Positions 422 to 15,963 of a stretch of DNA of 15,963 nucleotides are shown here, in pieces. The translations under genes and the position numbers were made by a program. Position 1 is the stretch's first letter, and each line of letters opens with the position of its first letter. This DNA comes from a bacterium (GTDB lineage Bacteria; Pseudomonadota; Gammaproteobacteria; Burkholderiales; Thiobacteraceae): NCBI GenBank assembly GCA_027438535.1, contig DAIAMA010000008.1, forward strand, positions 1 through 15,963, read 5' to 3'. The notes under the pieces are model-generated. The model was not told the DNA's origin. It made no database searches and saw only the letters and a program-made list of their open reading frames with translations.

Positions 422-1359
422 GCGCACCGCAAGTCTCCGTCATCATCCCCGTCTACAACGAGGAAGAAGGCCTGCCCGCCTTGTTCGCGCGCCTCTATCC
501 GGCGCTCGATCGACTTAACCGCGACTACGAAGTGATTTTCATCAACGACGGCAGCCGCGATCGCTCCGCCGCGCTGTTGCGCGAACAGTTCCAACAGCGG
601 CCGGATGTCACGCGCGTGATTCTGCTCAATGGCAACTTCGGCCAGCACATGGCGATCATGGCGGGCTTCGAGCACGCAAACGGAAACCATGTCGTCACCC
701 TGGATGCCGATCTGCAGAATCCTCCCGAGGAGATCGGCAAGCTCCTTGAAAAGCTGGACGAAGGATACGACTATATCGGCTCCATCCGCCGCCTGCGCCA
801 AGACAGCTGGTGGCGGCGCAAGGCCTCGCGCGCCATGAACTGGCTGCGTGAGCGCATCACCCGCGTGAAAATGACCGACCAGGGCTGCATGATGCGCGCT
901 TACGATCGCGCGATTATCGATGCGATCAATCGTTCGCGCGAGGTCAATACTTTCATCCCCGCGCTCGGCTACACTTTCGCCCGCAATCCGGTGGAGATCG
1001 AAGTCGGCCACGAAGAGCGCGCCGCCGGCGAATCGAAGTACTCGCTGTATAAGCTCATTCGCCTCAATTTCGATTTGATGACCGCCTTCTCCAGCATGCC
1101 GCTGCAAATGTTCTCGCTGTTCGGCATGGCGATCTCGGTGCTGTCGGCGCTGTTCTTCGTGTTCCTGATGATTCGGCGCTTGATCGTGGGCCCGGAAGCG
1201 CATGGCTTATTCACGCTCTTCGCCATCCTGTTTTTTCTGATCGGCATCGCGCTGTTCGGCATCGGGCTCTTGGGCGAATACGTCGGGCGCATCTACGAGC
1301 AAGTGCGGCGGCGACCGCGCTACTTGGTGCAGGCAGTATTGGAGCAAACGCAAGAATGA
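418..1359 (+). CDS. arnC: Undecaprenyl-phosphate 4-deoxy-4-formamido-L-arabinose transferase (GT2)
   Basis: The protein has 313 residues, close to the ~320 of ArnC. A GT-A glycosyltransferase family 2 domain fills residues 1-220: VSVIIPVYNEEEGL at 7-20, FINDGSRDRS at 41-50, and the metal/nucleotide DAD motif at 96-98 (TLDADLQNPPEEI). Two strongly hydrophobic segments, about 229-252 and 264-287, should be membrane helices, followed by the GEYVGRIYEQVRRRPRY tail typical of ArnC/DPM1-like enzymes. The expected reaction moves formylated Ara4N from UDP to undecaprenyl phosphate at the inner membrane. The start is the ATG in the ATGA overlap with arnB, with an AGAGG-like ribosome site just upstream. 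An in-frame extension upstream to base 136 is only an arnB shadow. Other GT2 polyprenyl-phosphate transferases look similar; the operon decides the call. Confidence 0.92.
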   Translation: MSAPQVSVIIPVYNEEEGLPALFARLYPALDRLNRDYEVIFINDGSRDRSAALLREQFQQRPDVTRVILLNGNFGQHMAIMAGFEHANGNHVVTLDADLQNPPEEIGKLLEKLDEGYDYIGSIRRLRQDSWWRRKASRAMNWLRERITRVKMTDQGCMMRAYDRAIIDAINRSREVNTFIPALGYTFARNPVEIEVGHEERAAGESKYSLYKLIRLNFDLMTAFSSMPLQMFSLFGMAISVLSALFFVFLMIRRLIVGPEAHGLFTLFAILFFLIGIALFGIGLLGEYVGRIYEQVRRRPRYLVQAVLEQTQE

Positions 1360-2273
1360 CCACGGCGGTGGTATTCGCCTACCATAACGTCGGCGTGCGC
1401 TGCTTGTCGGTATTGCTGGCCCGGGGCGTGCGCGTGCCGCTGGTCGTGACCCACGAAGATTCCCCGCAGGAAACCATTTGGTTCGGCAGCGTGGCACAAC
1501 TCGCCGCCGAGCACGATATTCCCGTCGCGGCACCGAGCGATCCGAATGACCCTGATTTTGTCGCGCGCGTGCGTACGCTAGCACCGGATTTTCTATTCTC
1601 GTTTTACTATCGCCACATGCTGAAAGCGCCCCTGCTCGCCACCGCGCGGCGCGGCGCGCTCAATATGCACGGCTCGCTGCTGCCCAAGTATCGCGGGCGC
1701 GTGCCGGTGAATTGGGCGGTACTGCATGGCGAGACTAAAACCGGCGCATCGCTGCATTATATGGAAGCCAAGCCCGATGCCGGCGATCTGGTCGATCAGC
1801 AAGCAGTGCCGATTCTGGCCGACGACACGGCGGCGGAGGTTTTCGCCAAAGTGACTTGCGCCGCGGAAATCGTGCTGTATCGCAGCTTGCCCGGGCTCAT
1901 CGCGGGGACAGCGCCGCGCATACCGCTCGATTTACGCCAAGGAAGCTATTTCGGCGGGCGCAAGGCCGAGGACGGGCGCATCGATTGGACCCAGCCGGCA
2001 CAGGCGATCCACAATCTGATCCGGGCCGTGGCACCACCCTATCCCGGCGCGTTTACTACCCTGGCGGGCAAGCCGCTGCGTATCTTGAAAAGCCGGCTGG
2101 CGCCGGAGCGGGCGCCGCGCTCGAATACGCCGATGTTCTATTGCGACGCGGCCCATTGCTATGCCGACTGCGTCGATGGGCGGGTATTGCTTGTCTTGCA
2201 ATGCGAGCTCGATGGCGCGGCGCTGATACCCGCTTCCTTCGGCACTACCGCAATACCGCTCGGCGGCGCGTGA
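1356..2273 (+). CDS. arnA: UDP-4-amino-4-deoxy-L-arabinose formyltransferase (stand-alone ArnA N-terminal domain)
   Basis: The protein has 305 residues and matches only the N-terminal half of enterobacterial ArnA. The 10-formyltetrahydrofolate-dependent formyltransferase core is clear: LNMHGSLLPKYRGRVPVNW gives N103 and H105, and the PDAGDLVDQ segment gives D141. These are equivalent to E. coli ArnA N102, H104 and D140. The C-terminal third, with an IDWTQPAQAIHNLIRAV block, is the OB-like domain of the Fmt/ArnA family. It formylates UDP-L-Ara4N, a transient modification that drives the pathway forward and is later removed by ArnD. The ATG overlaps the arnC stop (ATGA). The partner decarboxylase domain is a separate gene 39 bases downstream, so the two activities are not fused here. 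A formyltransferase for another UDP-amino sugar is unlikely in this operon. Confidence 0.92.
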   Translation: MTTAVVFAYHNVGVRCLSVLLARGVRVPLVVTHEDSPQETIWFGSVAQLAAEHDIPVAAPSDPNDPDFVARVRTLAPDFLFSFYYRHMLKAPLLATARRGALNMHGSLLPKYRGRVPVNWAVLHGETKTGASLHYMEAKPDAGDLVDQQAVPILADDTAAEVFAKVTCAAEIVLYRSLPGLIAGTAPRIPLDLRQGSYFGGRKAEDGRIDWTQPAQAIHNLIRAVAPPYPGAFTTLAGKPLRILKSRLAPERAPRSNTPMFYCDAAHCYADCVDGRVLLVLQCELDGAALIPASFGTTAIPLGGA

Positions 2274-2312
2274 TCTATCCTTTATAATTGCAGTTTTCCC
2301 CAAGAAACGATC

Positions 2313-3356
2313 ATGAAAAAAGTCCTCATTCTCGGCGTCAACGGTTTCATCGGCCACCACCTCTCCAACCGCATCCTCGCCACCACCGATTGGGAAGTGT
2401 ATGGGATGGACATGCAGAGCGACCGCGTCGCCGAGCACATGGGCAATCCGCGCTTTAAGTTTTTCGAAGGCGATATCACCATCAACAAGGAATGGATCGA
2501 ATATCATGTCAAGAAATGCGACACCGTCCTGCCGCTCGTCGCCATCGCCACGCCTGCAACCTATGTCAAGGAACCCCTGAGGGTATTCGAACTCGATTTC
2601 GAGGCCAATCTTCCCATCGTGCGCCACTGCGTGAAGTACGGTAAGCGCGTGTTGTTTCCCTCCACGTCCGAAACCTACGGCATGTGCGACGACGCGGAAT
2701 TCGACCCCTATGCCTCCAATATGGTGTATGGCCCGATCGACAAGCCACGCTGGATTTACGCGTGCAGCAAACAACTGATGGATCGCGTGATTTGGGCCTA
2801 TGGCATGCAAGGTGCGCTGGATTTCACCCTGTTCCGCCCCTTCAACTGGATCGGCGCCGGGCTGGACAGCATTTTTACCGCCAAGGAAGGCAGCTCGCGC
2901 GTGATTACGCAGTTCCTCGGCCACATCGTACGCGGCGAGGACATCAAGCTGGTGGACGGCGGCACGCAAAAACGCGCCTTCACCTACATCGACGACGGCA
3001 TCGACGCCTTGATGAAAATCATCGACAACAAAGATCAAGTTGCCAGCGGGCAGATCTATAACATCGGCAACCCCGCCAATAATTTCTCGGTGAAAGAACT
3101 GGCCAAGATGATGCTGGACTTGGCCATGAGCTACCCCGAGTATCGCGACACCGCGGTCAAGGTGAAAACGATCGAGACTACGTCCGGCGCGTATTACGGC
3201 AAAGGCTATCAGGACGTGCAGAACCGCGTGCCGAAGATTACCAACACCATGCGCGACCTGAATTGGAAGCCGCAAGTAACGATGCAGGATGCACTCAAAC
3301 ATATCTTCGACGCCTATAAGAATCAGGTGGGCGAAGCCAGGAAATTAGTGGAATAG
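2313..3356 (+). CDS. UDP-glucuronate decarboxylase / UDP-4-keto-pentose synthase (stand-alone ArnA C-terminal domain)
   Basis: This 347-residue short-chain dehydrogenase/reductase corresponds to the C-terminal half of E. coli ArnA. The N-terminal NAD-binding loop is VNGFIGHH (residues 9-16, within GxxGxxG). The catalytic set is visible as PSTSETYGM (S119, E120), the YxxxK pair Y149/K153 in YACSKQLMD, and R221 in GGTQKRAFTYIDDG, equivalent to ArnA R619. The family oxidises and decarboxylates UDP-glucuronate to UDP-4-keto-pentose, the substrate of ArnB. The single-domain Ralstonia homologue is described as a bifunctional UDP-4-keto-pentose/UDP-xylose synthase, so some UDP-xylose output is possible. 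It has its own ATG after a 39-base gap with only a weak AAGAAA ribosome site. Function is near certain; the gene name varies between annotations. Confidence 0.93.
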   Translation: MKKVLILGVNGFIGHHLSNRILATTDWEVYGMDMQSDRVAEHMGNPRFKFFEGDITINKEWIEYHVKKCDTVLPLVAIATPATYVKEPLRVFELDFEANLPIVRHCVKYGKRVLFPSTSETYGMCDDAEFDPYASNMVYGPIDKPRWIYACSKQLMDRVIWAYGMQGALDFTLFRPFNWIGAGLDSIFTAKEGSSRVITQFLGHIVRGEDIKLVDGGTQKRAFTYIDDGIDALMKIIDNKDQVASGQIYNIGNPANNFSVKELAKMMLDLAMSYPEYRDTAVKVKTIETTSGAYYGKGYQDVQNRVPKITNTMRDLNWKPQVTMQDALKHIFDAYKNQVGEARKLVE

Positions 3357-3390
3357 ATTTACCCGCGAACAGGATGCGAGGCGATACCGC

Positions 3391-3453
3391 GTAGCGCCGG
3401 CATCCTTTCCGGCAACCCCAGGGCCGAATTGCCGGCAAGGATGCCGGCGCTAC
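3391..3453. repeat. REP-like inverted repeat in the arnA-arnD gap
   Basis: Two 25-base arms (3391-3415 and 3429-3453) are reverse complements with one mismatch and a 13-base loop. The arms begin GTAGCGCCGGCATCC and end with the mirror image GGATGCCGGCGCTAC. The form resembles dispersed intergenic palindromes. It lies inside the arn transcript unit, where it would fold as a very stable RNA stem that could slow or shield the transcript before arnD. No T-run follows, so it is not a classical terminator. Repetition elsewhere in the genome cannot be seen from this window. Confidence 0.75.
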
Positions 3454-3478
3454 ATACCCTAGCCCAGCGAAATTATCA

Positions 3479-4387
3479 GTGAAGCTTGCCCTCAAAATAG
3501 ATGTCGACACTTATCGCGGCACGCTCGAAGGCGTGCCGCGCTTGGTGGAATTGCTGCAGCGCCACAACGCGCAAGCCACCTTTCTCTTCAGCCTCGGCCC
3601 GGATCACACCGGACGCGCGATCAAGCGCGTTTTCCGGCCGGGATTTCTGGGCAAAGTCCGGCGCACCTCCGTCACCTCGCATTACGGTTTTAAAACCCTG
3701 CTATATGGCACGCTCCTGCCGGGGCCCGACATCGGCCGGCGCTGCACCGAGGTGCTGTGCGGCGTGCGCGATGCCGGGTTCGAGGTAGGCATTCATTGCT
3801 ACGACCATGTGCGCTGGCAAGATCATGTGGCCAATGCTAACGCCGAGTGGACGACAACAGAAATGCGCAAGGCGGCGGAACGATTTACAGAGATATTCGG
3901 CGAACCCGCACATGTGCATGGCGCCGCAGGCTGGCAGATGAACCAGCACGCGCTGCGTCTCGAACAGCGCATGGGCTTCCGCTACTGCTCCGATACCCGC
4001 GGCAGTACGCCCTTCATCCCGATTTGGCATGCCGAAATCATGGCCTGCCCGCAATTGCCGACGACTTTGCCAACCTTGGACGAACTCATCGGCGCAAATG
4101 CGGTGACGGAAAGCAATGTCGCTTCGCATCTGCTGAAAATGACCGAAAACCCGCCGCCTACCGGCCATGTCTATACCTTGCACGCGGAATTGGAAGGCAT
4201 GAAACTCGCGCCGGCGTTTGAACAATTGCTCGAAGGCTGGAAAACGCAAGGCTACAGCCTGACCTCGCTGGCGGACTATTTTTCGGCGCTGGACACGGCA
4301 CAACTCCCGCATCACGAAGTGGTCTTAGGCAGTGTGCCCGGCCGTAGCGGCAGGCTGGCTTGTCAAGGGCCAAAATTTCTCGCATAA
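3479..4387 (+). CDS. arnD: 4-deoxy-4-formamido-L-arabinose-phosphoundecaprenol deformylase
   Basis: The protein has 302 residues, close to the usual ~300 of ArnD, and belongs to the NodB/polysaccharide-deacetylase superfamily. The start is GTG: the ArnD N-terminus (KLALKIDVDTYRGTLEGVP) begins directly after it. Visible motifs are the metal/catalytic D8 and D10 in IDVDTYRG, GIHCYDH with H106 and H110 (the HxxxH metal pair), and a late YTLHAELEG segment shared with ArnD. It removes the formyl group from undecaprenyl-phosphate-Ara4FN, making the pathway irreversible and leaving undecaprenyl-phosphate-Ara4N for flipping and ArnT. The gene follows the decarboxylase after 122 bases that hold the REP-like palindrome. 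No arnT, arnE or arnF follows; the next gene is a peroxiredoxin. Confidence 0.93.
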   Translation: MKLALKIDVDTYRGTLEGVPRLVELLQRHNAQATFLFSLGPDHTGRAIKRVFRPGFLGKVRRTSVTSHYGFKTLLYGTLLPGPDIGRRCTEVLCGVRDAGFEVGIHCYDHVRWQDHVANANAEWTTTEMRKAAERFTEIFGEPAHVHGAAGWQMNQHALRLEQRMGFRYCSDTRGSTPFIPIWHAEIMACPQLPTTLPTLDELIGANAVTESNVASHLLKMTENPPPTGHVYTLHAELEGMKLAPAFEQLLEGWKTQGYSLTSLADYFSALDTAQLPHHEVVLGSVPGRSGRLACQGPKFLA

Positions 4388-4402
4388 AAAATGTCACATA
4401 AA

Positions 4403-4427
4403 CGCGCTTGCCAAGCGCGGCGATTTT
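4403..4427 (+). terminator. Possible intrinsic terminator after arnD
   Basis: A perfect 7-bp stem (CGCGCTT at 4403-4409, AAGCGCG at 4413-4419) with a 3-base loop is followed after a few bases by TTTT. It lies 16 bases after the arnD stop, where the arn operon would be expected to end. The T-run is short, so termination may be partial. Confidence 0.4.
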
Positions 4428-4455
4428 GACAACAATGTAGCCATGCTTCCATTAC
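4426..4455 (+). promoter_or_regulatory. Candidate sigma70-type promoter for bcp-phoH
   Basis: A perfect -35 hexamer TTGACA (4426-4431) is followed after 18 bases by CATTAC (4450-4455), a poor -10 with three of six consensus bases. It sits in the 86-base gap between arnD and bcp, just after the possible terminator, where a new transcription unit would start. This is a sequence match only. Confidence 0.35.
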
Positions 4456-4473
4456 AAAGGCCGTACCGGCAAG

Positions 4474-4929
4474 ATGCTCAATCAACCCCTTGCTGATTTC
4501 GCGCTGCCTTCCACCGGCGGCAAGACTTTCAAGCTCAGTCAATACCAGCACCAGCGCCTCGTTATTTATTTCTACCCCAAGGATAATACCCCCGGCTGCA
4601 CCACCGAAGGGATGCAATTTCGCGACCGCTACGCCGAATTCCGGCAACTTGATTGCGACATCGTCGGTATCTCGCGCGACAGCATCAAATCGCACGAAGG
4701 CTTTAAGGCAAAACTTCCTTTACCCTTCGATCTGCTGAGCGATACCGAAGAAACGGCGTGCCGATTATTCGATGTCATCAAGCTAAAAAACATGTACGGC
4801 AAACAAGTGCGCGGCATTGAGCGCAGCACCTTCGTGATCGGCAAAAACGGCGTACTGGTAAAAGAATGGCGCGGCGTGAAAGTGCCCGATCACGTTCAAG
4901 CCGTGCTGGATTTCGTCAAAACCCTTTAA
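4474..4929 (+). CDS. bcp: Thiol peroxidase, BCP/PrxQ-type peroxiredoxin
   Basis: The protein has 151 residues, normal for the family, which reduces hydrogen peroxide and organic hydroperoxides in the cytoplasm. The peroxidatic cysteine is C42 in DNTPGCTTEG, the standard PxxxT/SxxC context. E. coli Bcp has a partner cysteine five residues later; here that position is M47. The alternative helix-3 position used by Xanthomonas/Xylella PrxQ (in SHEGFKAK) is also not cysteine. C61 and C96 are the only other cysteines, and C96 lies at the place of the non-essential E. coli C99. It may therefore work as a 1-Cys enzyme reduced by an external thiol, which is inference. The stop is 21 bases before the phoH start, so the two genes probably form an operon. 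Confidence 0.93.
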   Translation: MLNQPLADFALPSTGGKTFKLSQYQHQRLVIYFYPKDNTPGCTTEGMQFRDRYAEFRQLDCDIVGISRDSIKSHEGFKAKLPLPFDLLSDTEETACRLFDVIKLKNMYGKQVRGIERSTFVIGKNGVLVKEWRGVKVPDHVQAVLDFVKTL

Positions 4930-4950
4930 ATTCCCGGAGACGCCCCACTC

Positions 4951-6369
4951 ATGGCTCAGAAGCGCACCACGATCAAGAAGCAAGCCGCGCTCACTAAATT
5001 ATTCGTGCTCGACACCAATGTCTTGATGCACGATCCTTCCAGCCTGCTCCGCTTCGAGGAGCACGATGTCTATCTGCCGATGATGACGCTGGAAGAGTTG
5101 GACAATAACAAGAAAGGCATGACCGAAGTCGCGCGCAACGCGCGCCAAACCAGCCGCTTCCTGGACCAAATCGTGAGCGATCCGCAAGCGAATATGGAGC
5201 AAGGCATCGCGCTCGCTCCGCACAGCGGCGCTGCCGCGACCGGGCATTTATTCATCCAGACTTACGCCATTAACAGCGAGTTGCCGGCGGCTTTGCCGAG
5301 CTATAAGGGCGATAATCAAATTCTCGGCGTCATGCTGCATCTGCAGCGCGAATTTCCCAAGCGCCAAGTCATCCTGGTGTCGAAAGACATCAATATGCGC
5401 ATCAAGGCGCGCGCCTTGGGTTTCTCCGCGGAAGACTATTTCAACGACAAGGTGCTGGAAGACACCGATCTGCTGTATAGCGGCACGCGCTTGCTGCCGG
5501 AAGACTTTTGGGACAAACACGCCAAAGGCATGGAATCGTGGCAGGAAAACACCCATACTTTTTATCGCATCAAAGGGCCTTTGTGCCGCGAACTGCTGAT
5601 CAACGAATTCGTCTACCAAGAAAGCCCGCAACCGCTCTACGCCCAGGTGCGCGAACAAATCGGCAACGGCGCGGTATTGGAGACGATTCGCGATTTTTCT
5701 CATGCCAAAAACAGCGTATGGGGCATCACCGCGCGCAACCGCGAGCAAAATTTCGCCTTGAATATTCTCATGAATCCCGACATCGACTTCATCACGCTTT
5801 TGGGCCAGGCCGGCACCGGCAAAACCCTGCTCACCCTCGCCGCGGGCCTGACGCAAGTGCTGGAGGACAAGCGCTACAATGAAATCATCATGACCCGCGT
5901 CACCGTGCCGGTGGGCGAGGACATCGGTTTTTTACCGGGCACCGAAGAGGAAAAAATGACGCCGTGGATGGGCGCCTTGGAAGACAACCTCGATGTGCTC
6001 AATAAAACCGACGACTCCGCCGGCGAATGGGGCCGCGCCGCGACCCAGGATTTGATTCGCTCGCGGATTAAAATCAAATCGCTCAACTTCATGCGCGGGC
6101 GTACCTTCCTCAATAAATTTCTCATCATCGACGAGGCGCAAAATCTCACGCCGAAGCAGATGAAAACCCTCATCACCCGCGCCGGCCCCGGCACCAAAGT
6201 GGTGTGTCTGGGCAACATCGCCCAAATCGATACGCCCTATCTAACCGAGGGCAGCTCGGGGTTGACTTATGTGGTGGATCGTTTCAAAGGCTGGCTGCAT
6301 AGCGGCCATGTGACGCTGATGCGCGGTGAGCGCTCAAGGCTGGCGGATCACGCGGCAGAGGTGTTGTAA
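4951..6369 (+). CDS. PIN-domain/PhoH-family ATPase (PhoH2/YlaK type)
   Basis: The protein has 472 residues in two domains. Residues ~17-165 form a PIN nuclease domain with FVLDTNVLMHDP (D21), the TLEELDNNKKG block (E48/E49), GDNQIL (D121) and LVSKDINMRIKA (D146), which are the acidic metal-site positions. Residues ~250-472 form the PhoH P-loop ATPase with Walker A GQAGTGKT (285-292) and Walker B FLIIDEAQN (390-398). In characterised PhoH2 proteins the pair acts as an RNA helicase/ribonuclease; the native target here is unknown. A GGAG ribosome site precedes the ATG. This is not the PIN-less PhoL/YbeZ that normally precedes ybeY, so the ybeY fragment at the far end of the window is not its direct partner. 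The TAA stop lies in the left end of the MITE-like element. Confidence 0.93.
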   Translation: MAQKRTTIKKQAALTKLFVLDTNVLMHDPSSLLRFEEHDVYLPMMTLEELDNNKKGMTEVARNARQTSRFLDQIVSDPQANMEQGIALAPHSGAAATGHLFIQTYAINSELPAALPSYKGDNQILGVMLHLQREFPKRQVILVSKDINMRIKARALGFSAEDYFNDKVLEDTDLLYSGTRLLPEDFWDKHAKGMESWQENTHTFYRIKGPLCRELLINEFVYQESPQPLYAQVREQIGNGAVLETIRDFSHAKNSVWGITARNREQNFALNILMNPDIDFITLLGQAGTGKTLLTLAAGLTQVLEDKRYNEIIMTRVTVPVGEDIGFLPGTEEEKMTPWMGALEDNLDVLNKTDDSAGEWGRAATQDLIRSRIKIKSLNFMRGRTFLNKFLIIDEAQNLTPKQMKTLITRAGPGTKVVCLGNIAQIDTPYLTEGSSGLTYVVDRFKGWLHSGHVTLMRGERSRLADHAAEVL

Positions 6370-6745
6370 TTCCAATTTCCAATAAAAATAACTTTAATTC
6401 TCCCTCTCCCGCAAGGCGGGAGAGGGTCGGGGAGAGGGGATAAGTTTTATGCGCTGTTTTAAATGGAATTGGAATTAGCCGTTCATCGGCTTTTGACGGC
6501 GTGATTTCAAGAATTTCCGCGCTGACCACATTTTCCGCCACGAACGGATCGCTATTCACCCGGCTTTGAAGATCCGCCAGCGACGTATTGTGCGCCACAA
6601 TCCCACCGCCCAAATTAGGCTGAAGACTGCCGGCCAGCAAAAATACGCCGTCGTCGAAACCGCGTTTGATCCATTCTTTGTGGCCTTCCATGAATTGACC
6701 TGCTTGGCCTTTATTGCCGGAAAATTTAAGCAGCACGATAAACAT
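6284..6745 (-). CDS. YciI-like protein with an extended C-terminus
   Basis: The first ~92 residues match the small YciI/YCII fold: MFIVLLKFSGNKGQ, the HKEWIKRGFDDGVFLLAGS helix-strand block with H22, and DPFVAENVVSAEILEI. YciI-type proteins are ferredoxin-like dimers with a conserved His and Asp, and their function is mostly unknown. The family is normally 90-100 residues. Here the frame runs to 153 because it continues through the MITE-like element and about 85 bases antisense to phoH; residues after ~93 are of low complexity and not family-like. The original stop was probably lost when the element arrived. AGGAG lies nine bases before the ATG. The start is 66 bases after the attC-like site, so this gene could itself have come with the cassette region. 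Confidence 0.72.
   Translation of the reverse strand: MFIVLLKFSGNKGQAGQFMEGHKEWIKRGFDDGVFLLAGSLQPNLGGGIVAHNTSLADLQSRVNSDPFVAENVVSAEILEITPSKADERLIPIPFKTAHKTYPLSPTLSRLAGEGELKLFLLEIGITTPLPRDPPALSAHRASASHGRYAASL
6367..6477. mobile_element. 111-bp MITE-like element with terminal inverted repeats
   Basis: The ends are inverted copies: TAATTCCAATTTCC at 6367-6380 and GGAATTGGAATTA at 6465-6477, which match except for one extra T. TA at both outer edges is compatible with a TA target duplication. Inside is an 11-bp perfect hairpin (CCCTCTCCCGC 6402-6412, GCGGGAGAGGG 6416-6426), a type of palindrome widely dispersed between bacterial genes. There is no coding capacity. The left end carries the phoH stop codon, and the element lies inside the 3' end of the convergent YciI-like frame. 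The internal hairpin may also end transcription of the - strand gene, because an A+T-rich stretch follows it on that strand. Confidence 0.6.
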
Positions 6746-6811
6746 CTGATTTGTTCTCCTATCAACTTGGCGGTTTGAGTATATTTAGCCGTCTTTAGCT
6801 CGCGGCGGTAG

Positions 6812-6894
6812 CACGAACGTTCGCCATAACCGGCAGCAAAAAGTGGCGCTCCTTTGTCCACTTTTTGCTGCCGGAGTTGATGGCGTGGTTATGC
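6812..6894 (-). other. Integron attC-like recombination site (59-base element)
   Basis: Read on the - strand, the site begins with core GCATAAC (6894-6888) and an L box CGCCATCAAC. It continues with a 17-bp perfect stem (CCGGCAGCAAAAAGTGG, 6874-6858 with 6846-6830) around an 11-base loop. It then has the matching L' box GTTATGGCG and a final GTT (R', about 6818-6812). The two L boxes pair except for one extra base in the left copy, the usual attC sign of an extrahelical base. The preceding gene's TAA stop falls in the left core, as is common for gene cassettes. The R' core reads GTTCGTG instead of GTTRRRY, so the site is either degenerate or only attC-like. No integrase gene is visible. Confidence 0.55.
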
Positions 6895-7335
6895 GGCAGT
6901 TTCATTGCTACTTTCATCTGGGTATATGTCCAAACCAATGGCGATATTGAGTTTGGCAGTACCCTCCATAAGTGATGGCTCGAAAGTGGCACCAAAGTTT
7001 GATGAACCAAGCCAGCCGACAAAATATTCAACGTAACCACCTTCCCGTACTAGTTGCGCGAAAAACTCCGCGTGCGAACTGAGACGCTTGTTGGTGGCAA
7101 CCAAAAATTCTTCTAACACGATATTTTCAGAGTTGAGGTTTTTTGGTTTATGCAAATTAGCACCCCAAAAACTTTCTTTGTTGATACCGGGCAGCGACTG
7201 GCCTTTTGGATTGGACCGAGGTTCACCAACTGTCCATTTGCGAAAAGGCTCAATATTTAGTGTCTGAGTAATTAGCTCCGGGGAAATTGTCGGATGCGTG
7301 ATTCGAAGCGAGACACGATATTCATAACTATTCAT
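6889..7335 (-). CDS. DUF4279 domain-containing protein
   Basis: This 148-residue protein matches DUF4279 along most of its length: the ITHPTISPELITQTLNIEP opening, WTVGEPRSNPKGQSLPG, SFWGANL, and a late GLDIY strand. There is no signal peptide or membrane segment, so it should be cytosolic. No molecular function is established for the family that I can state; members are often found in accessory regions. The gene is visibly richer in A+T than its neighbours. Its TAA stop lies inside the attC-like core, and an AGGG ribosome site precedes the ATG. Together these suggest an acquired integron cassette. The start at 7335 is the first ATG after a stretch with stops in this frame. Confidence 0.82.
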   Translation of the reverse strand: MNSYEYRVSLRITHPTISPELITQTLNIEPFRKWTVGEPRSNPKGQSLPGINKESFWGANLHKPKNLNSENIVLEEFLVATNKRLSSHAEFFAQLVREGGYVEYFVGWLGSSNFGATFEPSLMEGTAKLNIAIGLDIYPDESSNETAA

Positions 7336-7652
7336 AACAATGCCCTAGCCACATAATGTTTGAATTAACAGGTCTGCGTGGTTACTCGCGAGGATTTCTC
7401 TATCGTGCGACCGCATGGCAGAAAAAATATTGAGCCGCTGGATTCGCGCCACGGTGCTATGGAAATTGAATGACTGCCACGTGGTGATACGGCGGCAAAA
7501 TTCCCGATGGGAAGTAGTTGAACGTGCATGTTTCTAGTTTTTCCCCCGGTGAATCGCTCACAACGAGCTTGCCAGAGACTATGGCACACGCATTTTTTGG
7601 GGTCAACTCGATTACCGGCGCAGCCAGAGTCGCTCTATACAATCATGTCAGC
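7336..7652. other. 317-bp gap with no recognisable gene, possibly a decayed cassette
   Basis: No complete gene is convincing here. On the - strand three overlapping short frames are open: 7642-7457 (61 codons), 7589-7365 (74 codons) and 7533-7345 (62 codons without a good start). None shows a family motif I know, and the pattern suggests a frameshifted remnant. The last of these frames stops inside CTAGGGC just before the DUF4279 start. A weak attC-like pair of boxes (GAGTAAC at 7387-7381 and GGCTAGGGC at 7350-7342, - strand) brackets this end. Composition is more A+T-rich than the flanking operon. Confidence 0.4.
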
Positions 7653-8375
7653 TCAAAACGTATGATAGCGCGCCCCGTCGCGCTCCAAGGCCTCGCGCTC
7701 GCGCTGATAGTCCGGGTAAATCCGCGCCACGGTATTCCAAAACGCGCGCGAATGATTCATGTGCTTGAGATGCGCGAGTTCGTGCGCCACCACATAATCG
7801 ATCTGCGGCTGCGGCGCTTTAATCAGGCGCCACGAGAGGCGAATCACGCCCGAAGGCAGGCACATGCCCCAGGTGGTTTTGGCATTGGATAATTTCAGTT
7901 GCGGCGGCGCCACGCCCAGCCGCGGCGCAAACAGCGCGATCCGCGTCTGGAAATGTTGCTCGGCGCGGCGCTTGTACCAGTGCGCCACGCGTGCTTGCAC
8001 GATCTGCGCATCGTGCGTATCGGGCACGCCGACCAGTATTCTTCCCGCGTGGTGTATCGGCTCGGAGCGGGTATAGGTGCGGTAAAGATATAGCTCCACC
8101 TCCGCGCCCAACAGCGGCAAGCGCTCGCCATTTTTCCATTTGCGTTCGGGCAGGCGGCGCGCCTCCATCTCTTTGAGCTTGGCGGCGATCCACTGGGCGC
8201 GTTCGCTGATGAGCTGATCGAGGTAGGTGTAGGGCTCACGCGGTGGCGCGCTGACGGTTAATCCGTCCAAGTCGACTTTGAAACCGATGGTACGGCGCTT
8301 GCGGCGCAGCAAGGTGTAATTCAGCACGCGGCCGTCGAGTTGAATGACGCGGGTTTCTTTTAGCGGATAAGCCAT
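7653..8375 (-). CDS. YgjP/SprT-like zinc metalloprotease (M48-type domain, DUF45)
   Basis: The protein has 240 residues, the usual length for the YgjP-like family. The zinc site is VVAHELAHLKHMNHS with H198, E199, H202 and a third ligand at H208, i.e. HExxH followed by His after five residues. The N-terminal half holds the RRKRRTIGFKVDLDGLTVSAPP segment, and the middle has WGMCLPSGVIRLSWRLI, both typical. It is predicted to be a soluble cytoplasmic protein; substrates are unknown. The start is three bases after the plsC stop, so translation is probably coupled, and no strong ribosome site is seen. It appears to be the last gene of the - strand operon. Confidence 0.9.
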   Translation of the reverse strand: MAYPLKETRVIQLDGRVLNYTLLRRKRRTIGFKVDLDGLTVSAPPREPYTYLDQLISERAQWIAAKLKEMEARRLPERKWKNGERLPLLGAEVELYLYRTYTRSEPIHHAGRILVGVPDTHDAQIVQARVAHWYKRRAEQHFQTRIALFAPRLGVAPPQLKLSNAKTTWGMCLPSGVIRLSWRLIKAPQPQIDYVVAHELAHLKHMNHSRAFWNTVARIYPDYQREREALERDGARYHTF

Positions 8376-8378
8376 GGA

Positions 8379-9128
8379 TTAATCGGGTAAGACCGGGTCG
8401 CGGGCGAGGCATGCCTCGCCTCTATGTGGAAGCCGTACCATTTCCGTTTCGATCCAGGCTTGCACTTTTTCATTCAGTTCGCTCGGCTTCATGCCCGTGG
8501 CGTCGATCGGCGCGCCGATACTCACGGTGATGGTGCCGGGGTATTTCAAAAACGAATTGCGGCCCCAATACTCGCCGGCGTTGTGCGCCACCGGCAAAAC
8601 CGGGGTATTGGTGTGGGTCGCCAGCCATGCGCCGCCGATGCCGTAGCGCTTGGTCTCGCCCGGCGCGACGCGCGTGCCTTCGGGGAAGATCACGATCCAC
8701 AAGCCATGCTGTAAACGATCGCGGCCTTGCTCGGTCACTTGCTTCAAGGCCTCGCGTCCGGCACTGCGGTCGATGGCGACGGGCCGCAGCATCGCCAGCC
8801 CCCAACCCAGAAACGGCACGTACAACAACGAACGCTTCATCACCCACGTTTGCGGCGGAAAAATGCTCTGGAATCCTATCGTCTCCCACGCCGATTGGTG
8901 CTTGGAGAGAACGATAGCCGGTGTAGCCGGAATATGCTCGCGCCCTCGCACTTCGTAGCGCAAGCCGCACAACACACGCAACAGCCACAGCACGATGCGG
9001 CTCCAGTTCGAGATCACGCGATAGCGCGCCAAGGGCGGAAACGGAAAAGTCAGCAATGAAATAAGGGAATACGGCGGCGTAAGAAGAATCAGCGACAATA
9101 AAAATAAACACGAGCGCAAAAAAATCAT
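8379..9128 (-). CDS. plsC: 1-acyl-sn-glycerol-3-phosphate acyltransferase (PlsC-like)
   Basis: The protein has 249 residues, with a hydrophobic N-terminus (about 1-30) that should anchor it in the inner membrane and a second hydrophobic stretch at ~43-55. The acyltransferase motifs are SKHQSAWE (H77 with an acidic residue five later), a MLRPVAIDR block, and FPEGTR at 148-153. The family adds an acyl chain from acyl-ACP/CoA to lysophosphatidic acid, making phosphatidic acid for phospholipids. The first motif reads HX4E rather than HX4D: E82 replaces the usual aspartate. I believe this variant recurs in betaproteobacterial homologues, but I cannot verify that here. Its ATG overlaps the gmhB stop (ATGA on the - strand), so the pair is translationally coupled. 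Confidence 0.9.
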   Translation of the reverse strand: MIFLRSCLFLLSLILLTPPYSLISLLTFPFPPLARYRVISNWSRIVLWLLRVLCGLRYEVRGREHIPATPAIVLSKHQSAWETIGFQSIFPPQTWVMKRSLLYVPFLGWGLAMLRPVAIDRSAGREALKQVTEQGRDRLQHGLWIVIFPEGTRVAPGETKRYGIGGAWLATHTNTPVLPVAHNAGEYWGRNSFLKYPGTITVSIGAPIDATGMKPSELNEKVQAWIETEMVRLPHRGEACLARDPVLPD

Positions 9129-9664
9129 GAGGATTGGAGTACCTGCTTCGCCGCTGCGTCAAGGTCTTTGAACACTTGCGTCCCTTGGGGCAAGCCGTTG
9201 GCTTCTTGCGTGCGCACCCCTTTGCCGGTCAGCACCAGCATCGGTTGCGCCCCGACTGCCGCCGCCGCCTCCAGGTCGCGCAGCGCATCGCCGATGGCCG
9301 GTACGCCTTGCAGCGAGGTATTGAAGCGCCGGCCGATCTCTTCCAGCATGCCGGGACGCGGCTTACGGCATTGGCAATTCAAATCCGCGGCATGCGGGCA
9401 GTAGAACAACGCATCGATGCGCCCGCCCACTTGCGCCAGCGCGCGATACAGCTTGTCGTGAATCGCATTCAGCGTCGCCATATCGAACAAGCCGCGGCCG
9501 ATGCCGGATTGATTGGTGGCGATCACCACCCGGTAGCCGGCTTGATTGAAACGCGCGATCGCCTCCAGGCTGCCGGGAATGGGCTTCCATTCGTCCGGGG
9601 TCTTGATGAAATGCTCGCTGTCGTAATTGATCACGCCGTCGCGGTCGAGAATGATGAGCTTCAT
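9125..9664 (-). CDS. gmhB: D-glycero-beta-D-manno-heptose-1,7-bisphosphate 7-phosphatase
   Basis: The protein has 179 residues, standard for this HAD-superfamily phosphatase. Catalytic D7 and D9 lie in LDRDGVINYD. Motif II is ATNQSGIGRG (T50, N51), K101 lies in CRKPRPGM, and motif IV is GDALRD (D126, D130). The zinc loop expected of GmhB is complete, with C89, H91, C97 and C99 in FYCPHAADLNCQCRKP. It removes the C7 phosphate in ADP-heptose synthesis for the LPS inner core. It sits between a MAPEG gene and plsC, a grouping seen with glyQ-glyS in related bacteria. The stop overlaps the plsC start by four bases. A histidinol-phosphatase role is possible for close relatives, but the zinc loop and neighbours favour GmhB. 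Confidence 0.93.
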   Translation of the reverse strand: MKLIILDRDGVINYDSEHFIKTPDEWKPIPGSLEAIARFNQAGYRVVIATNQSGIGRGLFDMATLNAIHDKLYRALAQVGGRIDALFYCPHAADLNCQCRKPRPGMLEEIGRRFNTSLQGVPAIGDALRDLEAAAAVGAQPMLVLTGKGVRTQEANGLPQGTQVFKDLDAAAKQVLQSS

Positions 9665-9710
9665 AATGGATTATGCTAAAGCGAAAACCCTTATTTTCCT
9701 AGAGAAAACG

Positions 9711-10094
9711 CTATCCGATCACCCGTGCCGCGGCGAGAAACAAGCCGACGACGCAGGCAAATCCGCCGGCCCATGCCAGCGAGCGCGGCGTGGCCCAATC
9801 CAAAACATAGCAGATTCCGTGCAAGATGCGGAAACCGATAAACGCCAGCGCCAGCACATTCACCCAGGCCGGTGGCGCGCCCGATACTTGGGCGATGATC
9901 ACCCCGGCGGCGAAGGGCGCGAACGCCTCAAAGGCGTTCAGCTGCGCCCAGTTCGCGCGCTGGCGATAGCCGGTGGCTTGCGCCAACTGAGCGCGCGGCG
10001 CGCGGTTGTCGTAAGCGGGGCCGGCCTTGGCCACGACCACCCACACATAGGGCAAGAACGCTGCGGCCAGTACACACCAATAGGCAATCGGCAT
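9711..10094 (-). CDS. MAPEG family membrane protein
   Basis: The protein has 127 residues with four hydrophobic helices (about 3-23, 55-72, 78-95 and 105-125). The conserved MAPEG motif region follows helix 1: NRAPRAQLAQATGYRQRANW, then NAFEAFAPFAAGV. The superfamily includes eukaryotic glutathione-dependent membrane enzymes; most bacterial members, like this one, have no known substrate. It lies 22 bases after glyS on the same strand, with an AAAGGA ribosome site seven bases before the ATG, and 46 bases before gmhB. Membership in the family is clear, but no specific reaction can be claimed. Confidence 0.87.
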   Translation of the reverse strand: MPIAYWCVLAAAFLPYVWVVVAKAGPAYDNRAPRAQLAQATGYRQRANWAQLNAFEAFAPFAAGVIIAQVSGAPPAWVNVLALAFIGFRILHGICYVLDWATPRSLAWAGGFACVVGLFLAAARVIG

Positions 10095-10116
10095 TGTTTT
10101 TCCTTTCGCGCCAGAG

Positions 10117-12189
10117 TCACGCCAGCTTGCTGATATCCGCCACGAGATTCAGCAAATCGCCCAGCGCCTTCAGCAAAGCCAGGCGATTGTTCCGGATAAG
10201 CGGCTCATCGGCCATGACCATCACCTCATCGAAAAAACGATCCACTTGCGCGCGCACGCCCGCCAGGGCGCGCAGCGCATCGGTATAATCTTGGTTCGCC
10301 ACCAGCGAATGGACGACGGGCGCGAGTTGCGTCACGGCATCGAACAAGGCACGCTCGGCCTCTTCCACGAACAAGGCCAGGTCGGGCGCTTGGCCGGCGG
10401 CCTCGGTTTTCTTTAAGATATTCTGAATGCGCTTGTTGGCCGCCGCCAGCGCTTCCGCCTCGGGCAAGGCTTTGAATTCGCGCACCGCCTCCATGCGCGG
10501 CATGACTTGATCGATGCGTGCCGGGCCTTGCGATACCACGGCTTCGATTTCGTCCGGCTCGAAATCGCGTTCGCGCAAATAACTTTTCAAGCGTTCCAGC
10601 ACGAAGCCGTGCACATCCAATGCCACACTGTCCGTCAGTTGCTCCGCGCCAAATTGTGCCCGCGCGAGTTGCAATAGCTGCATCAGATCCAACGGCAAGG
10701 ACATTTCAATCAGCATGCGCAACACACCCAGCGCATGGCGGCGCAGGCCGAAGGGGTCTTTGTCGCCGCTGGGAACCAGGCCGATGCCGTAAATACCGAC
10801 CAAGGTATCGAGCTTATCGGCGAGCGCGACGGCAGCACCGACGTGATCGGCCGGCAAGGCATCGCCGGCGAAGCGCGGCCGGTAATGTGCCTCGATCGCC
10901 TGGGCTACCGGCTCCGGTTCGCCATCGATGCGCGCGTAATAGCGGCCCATCACGCCTTGCAGCTCGGGAAACTCGCCCACCATATCGGTGAGCAAATCCG
11001 CTTTGCATAAATAGGCCGCGCGCGCCGCGTGATCGGCATTGGCGTCAAGCTGCTGTGCGATCTCGGCGGCAAGCTTCTGAATGCGCATGACGCGCGCCAA
11101 TTGCGTGCCGAGCTTATTGTGATAGACGACATTGGCCAGCTTGGGCGTGCGCGTTTCGAGTGTGGTTTTTTGGTCTTGCTCGAAGAAGAATTTGGCGTCC
11201 GACAAGCGCGCTCGCAGCACACGCTCGTTGCCGTGAATAATATGCCGCGGGTCGGCCGTTTTCAGATTGCTCACCACCAGGAATTTCGGCAACAGTTTGC
11301 CTTGGCGATCCAGCAGCGGAAAATATTTTTGGTGCTGCTTCATGGAGAGAATCAAACATTCCTGCGGTACTGACAAGAAGGCCGCATCGAACTGCCCGGC
11401 GTATACCGCCGGCCACTCCACCAGCGCGGTCACTTCATCGAGCAGGGCTTCGTATTCCTCCGGCTGCGCATCGCCCGCCGCTAGCAACAAACGCATTTCG
11501 ATTTCGGCGCGGCGCTTGGCGAAGGACGGCATCACTTTGCCGTATTCTTCGAGGATAAACTCATAGTGGTTGGCGTGATCGATTGTCAGCGCACCCGCCC
11601 CCATGAAGCGATGGCCTTGGGTCACCTTACCGCTCTCGATTCCGAGCACTTCGCCAGGCAATACTTTGGTGCCGTGCAGCATCACCAGCCCATGCACCGG
11701 GCGCACGAATTGATGTTCGGTATCACCCCAGCGCATGAGCTTGGGGATAGGCAATGCCTTGATCGAGGCCTTGACGATATCCGCTATGACGTAGGCGAGC
11801 CGCGCGCCAGGCTTTACATCGGAATAGAACAAGGCTTCCGTCTTGCCGTCCATGCGCCGCTCGAAATGCGCAAGGCGCTCGACCGGAATGCCTTTTGTCT
11901 CCAGTTTTTTCAAGAGCGCTGGCGTGGGTTGGCCTTCTGCATCGAGCGCCACCGCCACCGGCATGAGCTTTTCGGTAAACGGTTGATCTGGTGCTTGATC
12001 GCGCACCTCCATCACCTGCACTGCCAAACGGCGCGGCGTGGCGAACCAGCTAAAGCCGGCCTCGGCGGAAACCAACTGGCGCGCATGTAGATCGAGAATG
12101 ATTTTTTCCGCGAAGGCTTGCCCCAAGCGCGGCAGCGCCTTCGGCGGCAGTTCTTCGGTAAGCAACTCGATCAATAATGTATCTTGCAT
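10117..12189 (-). CDS. glyS: Glycine--tRNA ligase, beta subunit
   Basis: The protein has 690 residues, matching the ~690 of the bacterial beta subunit in the alpha2-beta2 GlyRS. It opens [20 protein letters not shown], the family start, which fixes the ATG at 12189. The same frame stays open 78 codons further upstream, but those codons come from the inverted repeat and from antisense glyQ. Typical internal blocks include [38 protein letters not shown] and [15 protein letters not shown], and the C-terminal anticodon-binding region is complete. The beta subunit recognises tRNA-Gly and is required with GlyQ for charging. It lies 103 bases downstream of glyQ with a hairpin repeat between, and 22 bases before the MAPEG gene. 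The ribosome site is weak (AAAGAAAA). Confidence 0.97.
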
Positions 12190-12210
12190 GATTTTCTTTA
12201 AACCTTTTTT

Positions 12211-12283
12211 GCCACAGAGATCACAGAGCGCACAGAGAAAAAACTCGCGAAACACTCTCTGTGGACTCTGTGATCTCTGTGGC
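12211..12283. repeat. Long inverted repeat between glyQ and glyS
   Basis: Outer arms GCCACAGAGATCACAGAG (12211-12228) and its exact complement (12266-12283) form 18 perfect pairs. The match continues inward with CACAGAGA for eight more bases after two mismatches. The whole makes a ~28-bp stem with a ~17-base loop. The CACAGAG-rich sequence is of a type often dispersed between genes in environmental bacteria. In the glyQ-glyS transcript it would fold into a strong stem and could protect the upstream message or limit glyS expression. No T-run adjoins it on the - strand. Confidence 0.75.
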
Positions 12284-12292
12284 GAATGATTT

Positions 12293-13165
12293 TTAGCCCT
12301 TAAGCATCGGAAAGCCCAACGCTTCCCGCGAACTGTAATACGCCTGCGCCACCTGCCGCGCCAACGCGCGTACCCGGCCGATATAGGCCGCGCGCTCGGT
12401 GACCGAAATCGCGCCGCGCGCATCGAGTAGATTGAAGGTGTGCGAGCATTTCATTACCTGCTCGTAGCCAGGCAAGGCCAAGCCCGCATCCATCAAGCGC
12501 TTGGCTTCTTGTTCGTACATCGTGAATTGCTCCAGCAGCCAGTTCACATTGCTGTGCTCGAAGTTGTATTGGGATTGCTCGACTTCGTTTTGATGATACA
12601 CATCGCCATACGTTACGCCCGGCGTCCAGGTGATATCGAATAAGCTCTCCACCTCTTGCAGATACATGGCGAGGCGCTCCAGGCCATAGGTGATCTCGCC
12701 CAGTACCGGCTTGCAAGCGAGGCTGCCGACCTCCTGGAAATAAGTGAATTGGGTCACTTCCATGCCGTTCAGCCATACTTCCCAACCCAGCCCCCAGGCG
12801 CCGAGGGTGGGCGATTCCCAGTCGTCTTCCACGAAGCGGATATCGTGCACCTGCGGATCGATGCCGAGCGCGCGCAGCGAATCGAGATATAAGGTTTGGA
12901 TATTGGCGGGCGCGGGTTTGAGCGCTACCTGAAATTGGTAATAGTGCTGCAGGCGATTGGGGTTCTCGCCATAGCGGCCGTCCTTGGGGCGGCGCGACGG
13001 CTGCACATAAGCGGCCTTCCACGGCTCGGGCCCGAGCGCGCGCAAAAACGTGGCGGGGTGGAAGGTACCCGCGCCCATTTCCATATCGTAGGGCTGAAGC
13101 AACACACAGCCCTGCCGCGACCAGTATTGCTGCAAGGTGAGAATAATGTCTTGAAAGGTTCGCAT
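12293..13165 (-). CDS. glyQ: Glycine--tRNA ligase, alpha subunit
   Basis: The protein has 290 residues, close to the ~300 of bacterial GlyQ, the class II catalytic subunit that activates glycine and charges tRNA-Gly with GlyS. The start [20 protein letters not shown] is the family N-terminus, with an AAGGCG ribosome site before it. Class II signatures are clear: [20 protein letters not shown] (motif 1 region), [19 protein letters not shown] (motif 2), and [15 protein letters not shown] (motif 3). It is the first gene of the - strand operon; the 182-base gap to the divergent DsrE gene should hold its promoter, though I see no strong -35/-10 pair. The stop is TAA. Confidence 0.97.
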
Positions 13166-13347: not shown

Positions 13348-13821
13348 ATGCGTATGATCCATTTGCTTCCCCTCATCCTCGGCTGGTTCATCCTGCCCGC
13401 GCACGCCGCTCAAGATGCACCCTGGGGCCATGCCCATGCCATCGAAAAAGAATATAGCAAGCAGAAGGTGGTGTATGACGTCGCGGTCAATAGCGAGGCC
13501 GCCGTCACCAGCGTGCTCGATCGCGCCAGCTATCTCAGCCAGTTAAACGGCGCCGATCCCTTCGACAGCAAAATCGTCATCGTGCTGCATGGCAACGAAA
13601 TCCCTTTCTTTGCGATCAAAAACTTCGCCCGGCACAAAGCGCTGGTCACGCGCGCCCAAAGCCTATCGGTGGGCGGGATTATCGAATTCCGCATGTGCCG
13701 CCTCGCGGCGCGCGCGCATGGCTTCGCGCCGGAAGATATCCAAGGCTTCATCACCCTGGTGCCGATGGCCGATGCCGAAATCGTCGACTTGCAACATAAG
13801 GGATACGCCTATATGCGCTGA
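13348..13821 (+). CDS. Exported DsrE/DsrF-like family protein
   Basis: The protein has 157 residues. Residues 1-20 form a signal peptide (hydrophobic core LLPLILGWFILP, AHA at the cleavage site), so the mature protein should be periplasmic. The rest matches the DsrE-like fold: KVVYDVAVNSEA, an IVIVLHGNEIPFF strand, a lone cysteine C117 in IEFRMCRLA, and a VPMADAEIVDLQHKGYAYM tail. Some family members handle sulfur via that cysteine; the role of exported members is not established. AAGGAG lies five bases before the ATG. It is the only + strand gene between glyQ and lnt, and its last 13 bases overlap the lnt stop end (convergent). A possible -10 (TACTAT, 13302-13307) has no good -35. Confidence 0.82.
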   Translation: MRMIHLLPLILGWFILPAHAAQDAPWGHAHAIEKEYSKQKVVYDVAVNSEAAVTSVLDRASYLSQLNGADPFDSKIVIVLHGNEIPFFAIKNFARHKALVTRAQSLSVGGIIEFRMCRLAARAHGFAPEDIQGFITLVPMADAEIVDLQHKGYAYMR

Positions 13822-15329
13822 CGTATCAGCGCTACCCCCCACAATCCCCCCAGCAACATCAGGAAGGCGCCGTTGCCGAAACGCACATAGGGCGTCTCGC
13901 CCGCCATGCCCTGCGCCGTGCCCTGCAATGCCGCTTCGTGAAATACCGGCGCTTGGGCGATAACGCGGCCCTTGTCATCCACGATGGCCGTCATGCCGGT
14001 ATTGGTGGCGCGCAGCATATAGCGGCCCGTTTCCAGGGCGCGCATTTGCGAGATTTGCAGATGCTGGCGCAGCGCGATGGAATCGCCGAACCAGGCGTCG
14101 TTGCTCACATTGGCGAGCAGCGTCGCTTGCGGTAATTGGCGGATGAGTTCCTCGCCGAAGGCATCTTCGTAGCAAATCGCCATCGCCACTTTCTGGCCGG
14201 CGACGGTGAGCGGCTTCTGATCCGCCGCGCCGCGCGAAAAATCCGAGAGCGGGATTTGCATCAAGTCCATAAACCAGCCGAACACCGGCTTCAGCGGAAT
14301 AAATTCGCCGAAAGGCACGAGGTGCTGCTTGCGATAAACCTGCGTGGGCGATGCGCCCAAGCTGATTACGCTGTTGTAGTAGGTATGCTGTTCGAAATCG
14401 CGCTCGGGTACCCCGGCAATCAGATCGCCGCCGTTATCGCGCGCATGCTGGGCTAGCTCCGCCAAATACGATACCGATACTTGATCGTAAAATAAGGGGA
14501 TCGCCGTCTCCGGCAAAACGATCAGTTGGCTGCGGCTCTCCAGCACCAGCTTGCGATAGGTAACGAGGGTGGACAGTAAGCGATCCTCGCGCCATTTCAT
14601 ATCCTGCGGGATATTGCCTTGCAGCAGGCTCACCGTCACCGGCGCGCCTACCGGGTGCGTCCAGGCGACGAATTGCAGGCCCGCGCCCGCGCCCCATAAT
14701 ACGAGCAAGCCACTCAAGGCAAGCCAAGCATGCTTGCGCCTATTGCGCCATGCGCCATAGGCGAGCGCTATCAGGCCCGCGCTCAAGGCCAGCAGCAGCG
14801 ACACGCCGTATACGCCGAACACCGGCGCGTAACCCGCCAGCGGGCCGGCAGGCACTTGCGAATAGCCCAAGGCCAGCCACGGAAAACCGGTGAATATCCA
14901 GCCGCGTATCCATTCGAAGAGCATGAAGCTGGCGGGCATCGCGGCCAATAAACGTAGCGCCGGCGCGCCTTTCAGCCACGCCTGCACCCATCCGGCCAAG
15001 GCCGGGAACAGCGCCAAAAAAGCGCAGAATACTAAAGTCGCCAAGACAGCTATTGGCATCGGCATCATGCCGAAATCGTGCATGCTCACATAGACCCAAG
15101 ACACGCCCACGCCGAACAGCCCCAGGCCGAACATAAAACCCATGGCGAATGCCGCACGGCGCGAGCCGGCGTGCCACCAGAGATAAAACAAAGCCGCGAT
15201 GGTCAGCGGCGGCAGGAAATAAAAATAAAACGGCGCAAATCCCAGAACGGTGAGTGCGCCGAGAAAAAATGGCAGCGCGCCGAGCTTGAAACGCCCGGCA
15301 CGCAGAATGAGCGCGGCGCTTTGGGTCAA
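13809..15329 (-). CDS. lnt: Apolipoprotein N-acyltransferase
   Basis: The protein has 506 residues, like E. coli Lnt (512). Multiple hydrophobic helices cover residues ~15-225 and one closes the C-terminus (~484-503). A periplasmic nitrilase domain lies between. The catalytic triad is visible: E274 in VLPETAIP, K334 in VYRKQHLVPFGEF and C386 in AMAICYEDAFG. It adds the third acyl chain to the N-terminal cysteine of lipoproteins. The start is TTG, overlapping the corC stop as TTGA: a stop lies nine codons upstream and no ATG or GTG falls in between. The corC-lnt overlap is the normal operon layout and shows that this side of the rearranged joint is intact. Confidence 0.95.
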   Translation of the reverse strand: MTQSAALILRAGRFKLGALPFFLGALTVLGFAPFYFYFLPPLTIAALFYLWWHAGSRRAAFAMGFMFGLGLFGVGVSWVYVSMHDFGMMPMPIAVLATLVFCAFLALFPALAGWVQAWLKGAPALRLLAAMPASFMLFEWIRGWIFTGFPWLALGYSQVPAGPLAGYAPVFGVYGVSLLLALSAGLIALAYGAWRNRRKHAWLALSGLLVLWGAGAGLQFVAWTHPVGAPVTVSLLQGNIPQDMKWREDRLLSTLVTYRKLVLESRSQLIVLPETAIPLFYDQVSVSYLAELAQHARDNGGDLIAGVPERDFEQHTYYNSVISLGASPTQVYRKQHLVPFGEFIPLKPVFGWFMDLMQIPLSDFSRGAADQKPLTVAGQKVAMAICYEDAFGEELIRQLPQATLLANVSNDAWFGDSIALRQHLQISQMRALETGRYMLRATNTGMTAIVDDKGRVIAQAPVFHEAALQGTAQGMAGETPYVRFGNGAFLMLLGGLWGVALIRQRI

Positions 15330-15505
15330 GCCGTACCTTGCAAGGGATTGACCCTATCGGCATTTTGCACGCGCTCGACCAACAGCGAGTGCAAGCGCCG
15401 GCTATCGGCGCGCAACACTTGAAAGCGCAAGCCTTCGAGCACTACCGACTCGCCGCGCTTGGGCAGGCGCCCAAATTTGCTGACCACCAAGCCGCCGGTC
15501 GTGGT
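15326..15505 (-). pseudogene. corC: CorC/HlyC transporter-associated domain, C-terminal fragment
   Basis: Only the last ~59 codons remain. [19 protein letters not shown] followed by [19 protein letters not shown] is the end of the CorC_HlyC domain, found at the C-terminus of the ~290-residue cytosolic CBS protein CorC (magnesium/cobalt efflux, ion homeostasis). The frame runs upstream to 15529, but its first ~8 codons are antisense to ybeY, so homology ends at about 15500. The stop overlaps the lnt start. The rest of the gene is absent on this strand; an N-terminal corC start lies on the + strand at 15783. It is a truncated copy produced by the inverted joint, biological or artefactual. Confidence 0.85.
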
Positions 15506-15689
15506 GCGCGAGGCGCGGCACCAGCACAAAACTCTCGAAGCGCACTACGCGCATCTGGTAGTGCATGGCGCGCTGCATTTGCAAGGTTTCGATCATGAAA
15601 ACGAAGCCGATGCACAAGCGATGGAAGCGCGCGAGACCGAAATTGTCATGCGGCTCGGTTATCCTGATCCGTATGAAAATCGGCGGTGA
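15495..15689 (+). pseudogene. ybeY: Endoribonuclease YbeY, C-terminal fragment
   Basis: About 64 codons of the ~155-residue rRNA-maturation RNase remain. [16 protein letters not shown] leads into the zinc site [11 protein letters not shown] (three His ligands) and then a METE-like helix and LGYPDPYE at the end. The family needs this HGxLHxxGxDH motif for single-strand RNA cleavage in 16S processing. The N-terminal ~95 residues are missing. The frame continues upstream to an ATG at 15459, but those codons are antisense to corC. It is followed by corC on the same strand, the normal order, so the downstream side of the joint is also native sequence. Confidence 0.87.
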
Positions 15690-15692
15690 TGC

Positions 15693-15720
15693 ATGACGAA
15701 TAACCGAAATTATTCGTCAT
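15693..15720 (+). promoter_or_regulatory. Perfect 11-bp palindrome between ybeY and corC
   Basis: ATGACGAATAA (15693-15703) and TTATTCGTCAT (15710-15720) are exact complements around a six-base CCGAAA loop, starting four bases after the ybeY stop. The stem is A+T-rich with no proper T-run, so it is more likely an operator, processing site or weak pause hairpin than a strong terminator. Confidence 0.5.
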
Positions 15721-15730
15721 TTATTACTCC

Positions 15731-15799
15731 AAGGAGGTGACGAGGCATCGCGTGGCTTGTTTGACGATGCCGTTGTTTGTGTATGGACGAAACCCATAG
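15731..15799 (+). promoter_or_regulatory. Perfect Shine-Dalgarno with short leader frame overlapping corC
   Basis: AAGGAGGTGA (15731-15740) complements the 3' end of 16S rRNA over ten bases, but it is 42 bases before the corC ATG, too far to serve it directly. It could serve a GTG at 15752, which opens a 15-codon frame (MACLTMPLFVYGRNP) ending at 15799 and overlapping the corC start. A 7-bp stem (GGCATCG 15744-15750, CGATGCC 15765-15771) would enclose that GTG. This suggests a leader peptide coupled to corC translation, but a chance match is quite possible. Confidence 0.3.
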
Positions 15800-15963
15800 T
15801 AAACCGAGTTGGCTCGAGCGGCTTGGCGCGCTGTTGATGCGCGAACCCGAAGACCGAGACCAGCTCATCGAATTGCTCCACTCCGCTTACGAGCGGAATT
15901 TGCTTGATGCCGATGCGCTCGCCATGATCGAAGGCGTGCTGCAAGTGTCGGAATCCCAGGTGC
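15783..15963 (+). CDS. corC: CorC-type CBS-domain magnesium/cobalt transporter protein, 5' part
   Basis: The first 60 codons are present and the gene runs off the window. The N-terminal region is typical of proteobacterial CorC: SWLERLGALLMREPEDRDQL, then LLDADALAMIEGVLQVSESQV, which leads into the first CBS domain. CorC is a cytosolic or membrane-associated regulator of Mg/Co efflux, encoded between ybeY and lnt. The ATG is chosen because homology begins there and an in-frame stop lies six codons upstream; the nearest strong ribosome site is 42 bases away. Its own C-terminal part should lie outside the window on this strand, yet a corC C-terminal fragment also exists on the other strand beside lnt, so this gene sits on the far side of the inverted joint. 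Confidence 0.88.
   Translation, partial: MDETHSKPSWLERLGALLMREPEDRDQLIELLHSAYERNLLDADALAMIEGVLQVSESQV

Follow-up and report, generated by a model that had tools for sequence, protein, structure and literature searches.

The question raised by this locus is whether the fold-back of the ybeY-corC-lnt genes at the end of the contig belongs to the chromosome or was created on the way from cell to assembly. The window, i.e. the whole stretch of 15,963 nt that was analysed, represents the entire contig C486 of a draft genome comprising 1,748,319 bases in 497 contigs, with a completeness of 66%.

Gene content of the contig end

The lnt gene, encoding apolipoprotein N-acyltransferase, was identified on the minus strand (13809..15329) as an intact ORF with a TTG start and the Pfam domains LNT_N and CN_hydrolase, and was 82% identical to lnt of the same-genus genome G003. 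It is preceded on the same strand by the left fold-back arm (15326..15497), which translates as the 3′ end of corC (56 codons and the stop), aligns up to position 4833 of the related locus L002, and matches the Pfam family CorC_HlyC at positions 36-80 of 81 (15326-15496, minus strand, E-value 5.4e-10). At the joint (15493..15497), as placed by blastn blocks and both strands of L002, about 4 nt (GCCG) overlap, and the right fold-back arm follows on the plus strand. This arm begins with the 3′ part of ybeY (15495..15689, 64 codons and the stop), identified by translation and by a match to Pfam YbeY positions 78-128 of 129 (E-value 2.5e-13), and ends with the first 60 codons of corC (15783..15963, plus strand; L002 alignment up to 4327), which are cut by the contig end and carry the NMB0537_N domain (15783-15962, E-value 4.4e-21). 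Of ybeY and corC, the window accordingly holds only the 3′ part of the former and both ends of the latter, folded back. The earlier note, which was made from the letters of this DNA, had described these pieces: its last ~64 codons of ybeY were confirmed, and the 3′ piece of corC before lnt is present on the minus strand, with 56 codons and the stop in place of the ~59 codons given. At or just after the ybeY stop codon there is an imperfect inverted repeat (15686-15727) with arms of 18 nt and a loop of 6 nt, possibly a structured intergenic element.

An intact ybeY-corC pair elsewhere in the assembly, for which the same note had asked, was not found: the query covering the region from miaB to the start of lnt (L002:1000-5200), with 40 of the 55 candidates scored, and the search of the assembly for the YbeY family both returned the window's own pieces only. 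The absence of an intact copy decides little, because the assembly is 66% complete. The search for inverted repeats at the window end produced 13 pairs with arms of 19 nt at the longest, none of which connects the fold-back arms, as is expected if the contig stops before such a repeat would begin. G000:C333:9524-10972 contains a further lnt-like gene, with 41% identity to lnt of the window, and G001 and G009 likewise have a second match of this kind.

The window contains another break of synteny at 6370-7652, as positions 2-6369 match contig C18 and positions 7653-12194 contig C56 of G003. The stretch in between includes a DUF4279 protein and an ORF that lacks a Pfam match, and its matches in six relatives are all short or weak; either a natural insertion or a direct-orientation chimera could account for it. 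Among the matches listed, a six-frame self-search of window 6200-7800 returned self matches only. Short repeats at 6400-6440, 3390-3455 and 12200-12295 recur in many places in the relatives, the first of them also in other contigs of the same genome.

The joint in related genomes

The end of the window (13701-15963) was used as the blastn query against ten loci chosen for kinship from 91 loci of relatives (L002, L074, L075-L081 and L085), which derive from seven genomes of the same genus and two of the same family. L002 and L074 have matching coordinates and are probably one record, so that nine relatives were compared. The two arms matched opposite strands in all ten loci. The left block ended at 15496-15497 in each of them, and the right block started at 15493-15494 in nine and at 15509 in L080, so the blocks overlapped by 3-5 nt within 15493-15497 in nine loci and were separated by a gap in L080. 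In the nine relatives the corresponding segments lie on one strand at a distance of ~940-980 bp (971 bp in G006); in L002 coordinates the left arm aligns in minus orientation at 6469-4833 and the right arm in plus orientation at 3860-4327. The folded arrangement of the window was seen in none of the nine relatives compared.

The conserved gene order is miaB-ybeZ(phoH)-ybeY-corC-lnt. L002 resembles it, with five ORFs in a row on the same strand identified by eye as miaB, phoH, ybeY, corC and lnt, those of ybeY, corC and lnt being consecutive, whereas the window departs from it with the 3′ part of ybeY and the ends of corC folded back. The comparison bears out the earlier reading of a folded ybeY-corC-lnt locus whose genes normally share one strand, the pieces being confirmed also by Pfam. 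It shifts the switch of strands, previously placed at 15495-15507, to 15493-15497. The short stretch shared by both sides, for which 14 nt had been quoted, stands as microhomology but is reduced to the ~4 nt GCCG, which is present in both strands of L002; this length is judged from diverged relatives and is uncertain for the species of the window.

Inverted joints at other contig ends

Were the rearrangement a single event, no similar joints would be expected in the rest of the genome, and other contigs were examined for them. The sample, in which two contigs were truncated at 20,000 nt and a contig of 500 nt was not included, comprised 80 of the 497 contigs with 767,764 counted bases, and was compared with 1,083,378 bases from two genomes of the same genus. 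Matches shorter than 150 nt, matches overlapping a better one by at least half, and pairs at least 15 kb apart were dropped before counting. Matches of at least 150 nt were obtained for 56 of the 80 contigs and matches of at least 1 kb for 37, and 61 of the 160 contig ends had at least 150 nt aligned in the last kilobase.

Five of the 66 neighbouring alignment pairs (same locus, <15 kb), the window included, were joined in opposite orientation. All five joints were situated within 1 kb of a contig end, with spans of 949-2306 bp, and four of them had an overlap of 4-13 nt. Besides the window (15493-15497 of 15963, overlap 4 nt), the joints were found in C483 (near 5803-5815 of 6076, 13 nt), C199 (near 9564-9568 of 10547, 5 nt) and C445 (near 694-701 of 7420, 8 nt), and in C480 (near 529-571 of 6171), where a gap of 28 nt to the reference was present. 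The C199 and C483 loci are both continuous in the relatives G002, G003 and G005, and the C483 locus also in G001; likewise unbroken are the C480 joint region in G001 and G003, and that of C445 in G001, G002, G003, G005 and G007. The remaining relatives cover these loci partially, in several blocks or in split contigs. As relatives are unbroken at the other four joints, the fold-backs are a property of this assembly and not of the genus. The inversion control with G003, in which none of four pairs was inverted over 21,520 aligned nt, is small and weak.

Several of the contig ends consist of duplicated sequence. The first 571 nt of C480 are a 99.5% copy of C399:7465-6896 (three differences in 571 nt); this part of C399 aligns to the reference as one unbroken block, and the copy matches through position 571 despite the 28 nt gap to the reference at the joint. 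C483 ends in 275 nt that repeat positions 4258-4532 of the same contig in inverted orientation at 98.5% identity. Three of the four differences fall within the 13 nt overlap, which implies that perfect homology at this joint is shorter than 13 nt. In C199, the last 40 nt form an inverted 95% repeat (two differences) of the stretch around its own joint, and another duplicated stretch had one difference in 58 nt. The slight differences between copies may stem from errors where coverage is thin, or from the presence of more than one strain.

A sixth suspect end, in C1, was recognised besides the five joints by a short inverted copy, as C1:1-51 recurs inverted and without mismatch at C1:2863-2913; the match of C1 starts at position 38 in G003, at 52 in three genomes, and at 322 and 1273 in two further relatives. 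The fold-back contig ends other than the window are recorded as loci L096, L099, L140, L165 and L114 (contigs C480, C483, C199, C445 and C1). Terminal inverted repeats within one contig were detected in three of the 80 contigs of this genome and in one of 11 whole contigs of G003 (80 nt between the arms), and such a repeat taken alone was rejected as a sign of artefact for being unspecific. The case is built on recurrent joints contradicted by the relatives, not on terminal repeats alone. Two contigs ended in an exact match of 77 nt to another contig, which is a usual mark of de Bruijn assembly with k=77.

Origin of the joint

On the basis of these comparisons, the joint is very probably an inverted chimera that arose in vitro, most likely during multiple-displacement amplification (MDA), and survived into the contig end. 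The exact cause, including amplification of the sample by MDA, is inferred, and the controls are small. The earlier preference for a snap-back chimera, from MDA or misassembly, over a real inverted duplication gains support from the four further fold-backs at contig ends. A fold-back that arose during library preparation or solely through the assembler, without MDA of the sample, would be an artefact as well, and is an unlikely though not negligible origin: the genome could be a single cell or a metagenome bin, and a mixture of strains would be consistent with the small differences between copies. This origin is countered by the five joints, which are of the inverted <10 kb class that dominates the published MDA chimeras (PMC1855051), and by the numbering of the contigs together with their minimum length, which fits a separately assembled single cell. 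The contig numbers are apparently ranked by length inside this genome, and the presumably shortest contig is exactly 500 nt long, which suggests such a cell, a renumbered bin being possible.

A chromosomal inverted duplication, or an inversion with deletion, at ybeY-corC is highly improbable. Short microhomology at the joint is shared with many real rearrangements, and the intact locus missing among the scored candidates would agree with such an event, but it would cut both ybeY and corC, its arrangement is absent from the relatives compared, the same kind of joint recurs at four other contig ends, and one of those ends (C480) is made of sequence that stands colinear in another contig (C399). 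Scarcely credible is the reading in which the fold-back is genuine and peculiar to this strain, inactivating ybeY and dividing corC, in a lineage whose genome abounds in short inverted duplications; if true, the recurrent fold-backs would represent biological instability of the genome.

On the evidence of the contig end, neither ybeY nor corC should be reported as missing or broken in this organism, and neither gene loss nor rearrangement should be inferred from contig ends of this genome. The five other ends (C480, C483, C199, C445 and C1) are likewise suspect, and genes located there may be falsely truncated. Such chimeric ends can mislead automated scans and calls of gene content.

For the formation of the MDA chimera, a nascent strand copying from corC back into ybeY would lose its template, and its freed 3′ end would anneal, by a few bases, to a displaced strand close by within corC. 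The re-primed strand would then be extended toward lnt, the reverse direction being equally possible, and the assembler would have kept the chimeric molecule as a contig end because the true junction was thinly covered.

According to PMC1855051 (BMC Biotechnol. 2007), 406 of 475 MDA chimeras were inverted, and these became fewer as distance increased; 337 of the 406 spanned <10 kb, and 93.5% of the inverted chimeras of <10 kb had complementary bases where the pieces meet. The window resembles the chimeras described there in that pieces of one locus are joined in opposite orientation (10 of 10 loci), with a deletion of <10 kb between them (here ~940-980 bp), and in that a few complementary bases are found at the joint, the ~4 nt of GCCG judged from diverged relatives lying within the 2-21 nt of this class. 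The recurrence at scattered places, with five joints in 80 of the 497 contigs and the additional end of C1, agrees with the same class, as set against a small control. The two cases differ in their material, since the published chimeras were observed in reads from a known E. coli cell, and those of the present genome in assembled contigs.
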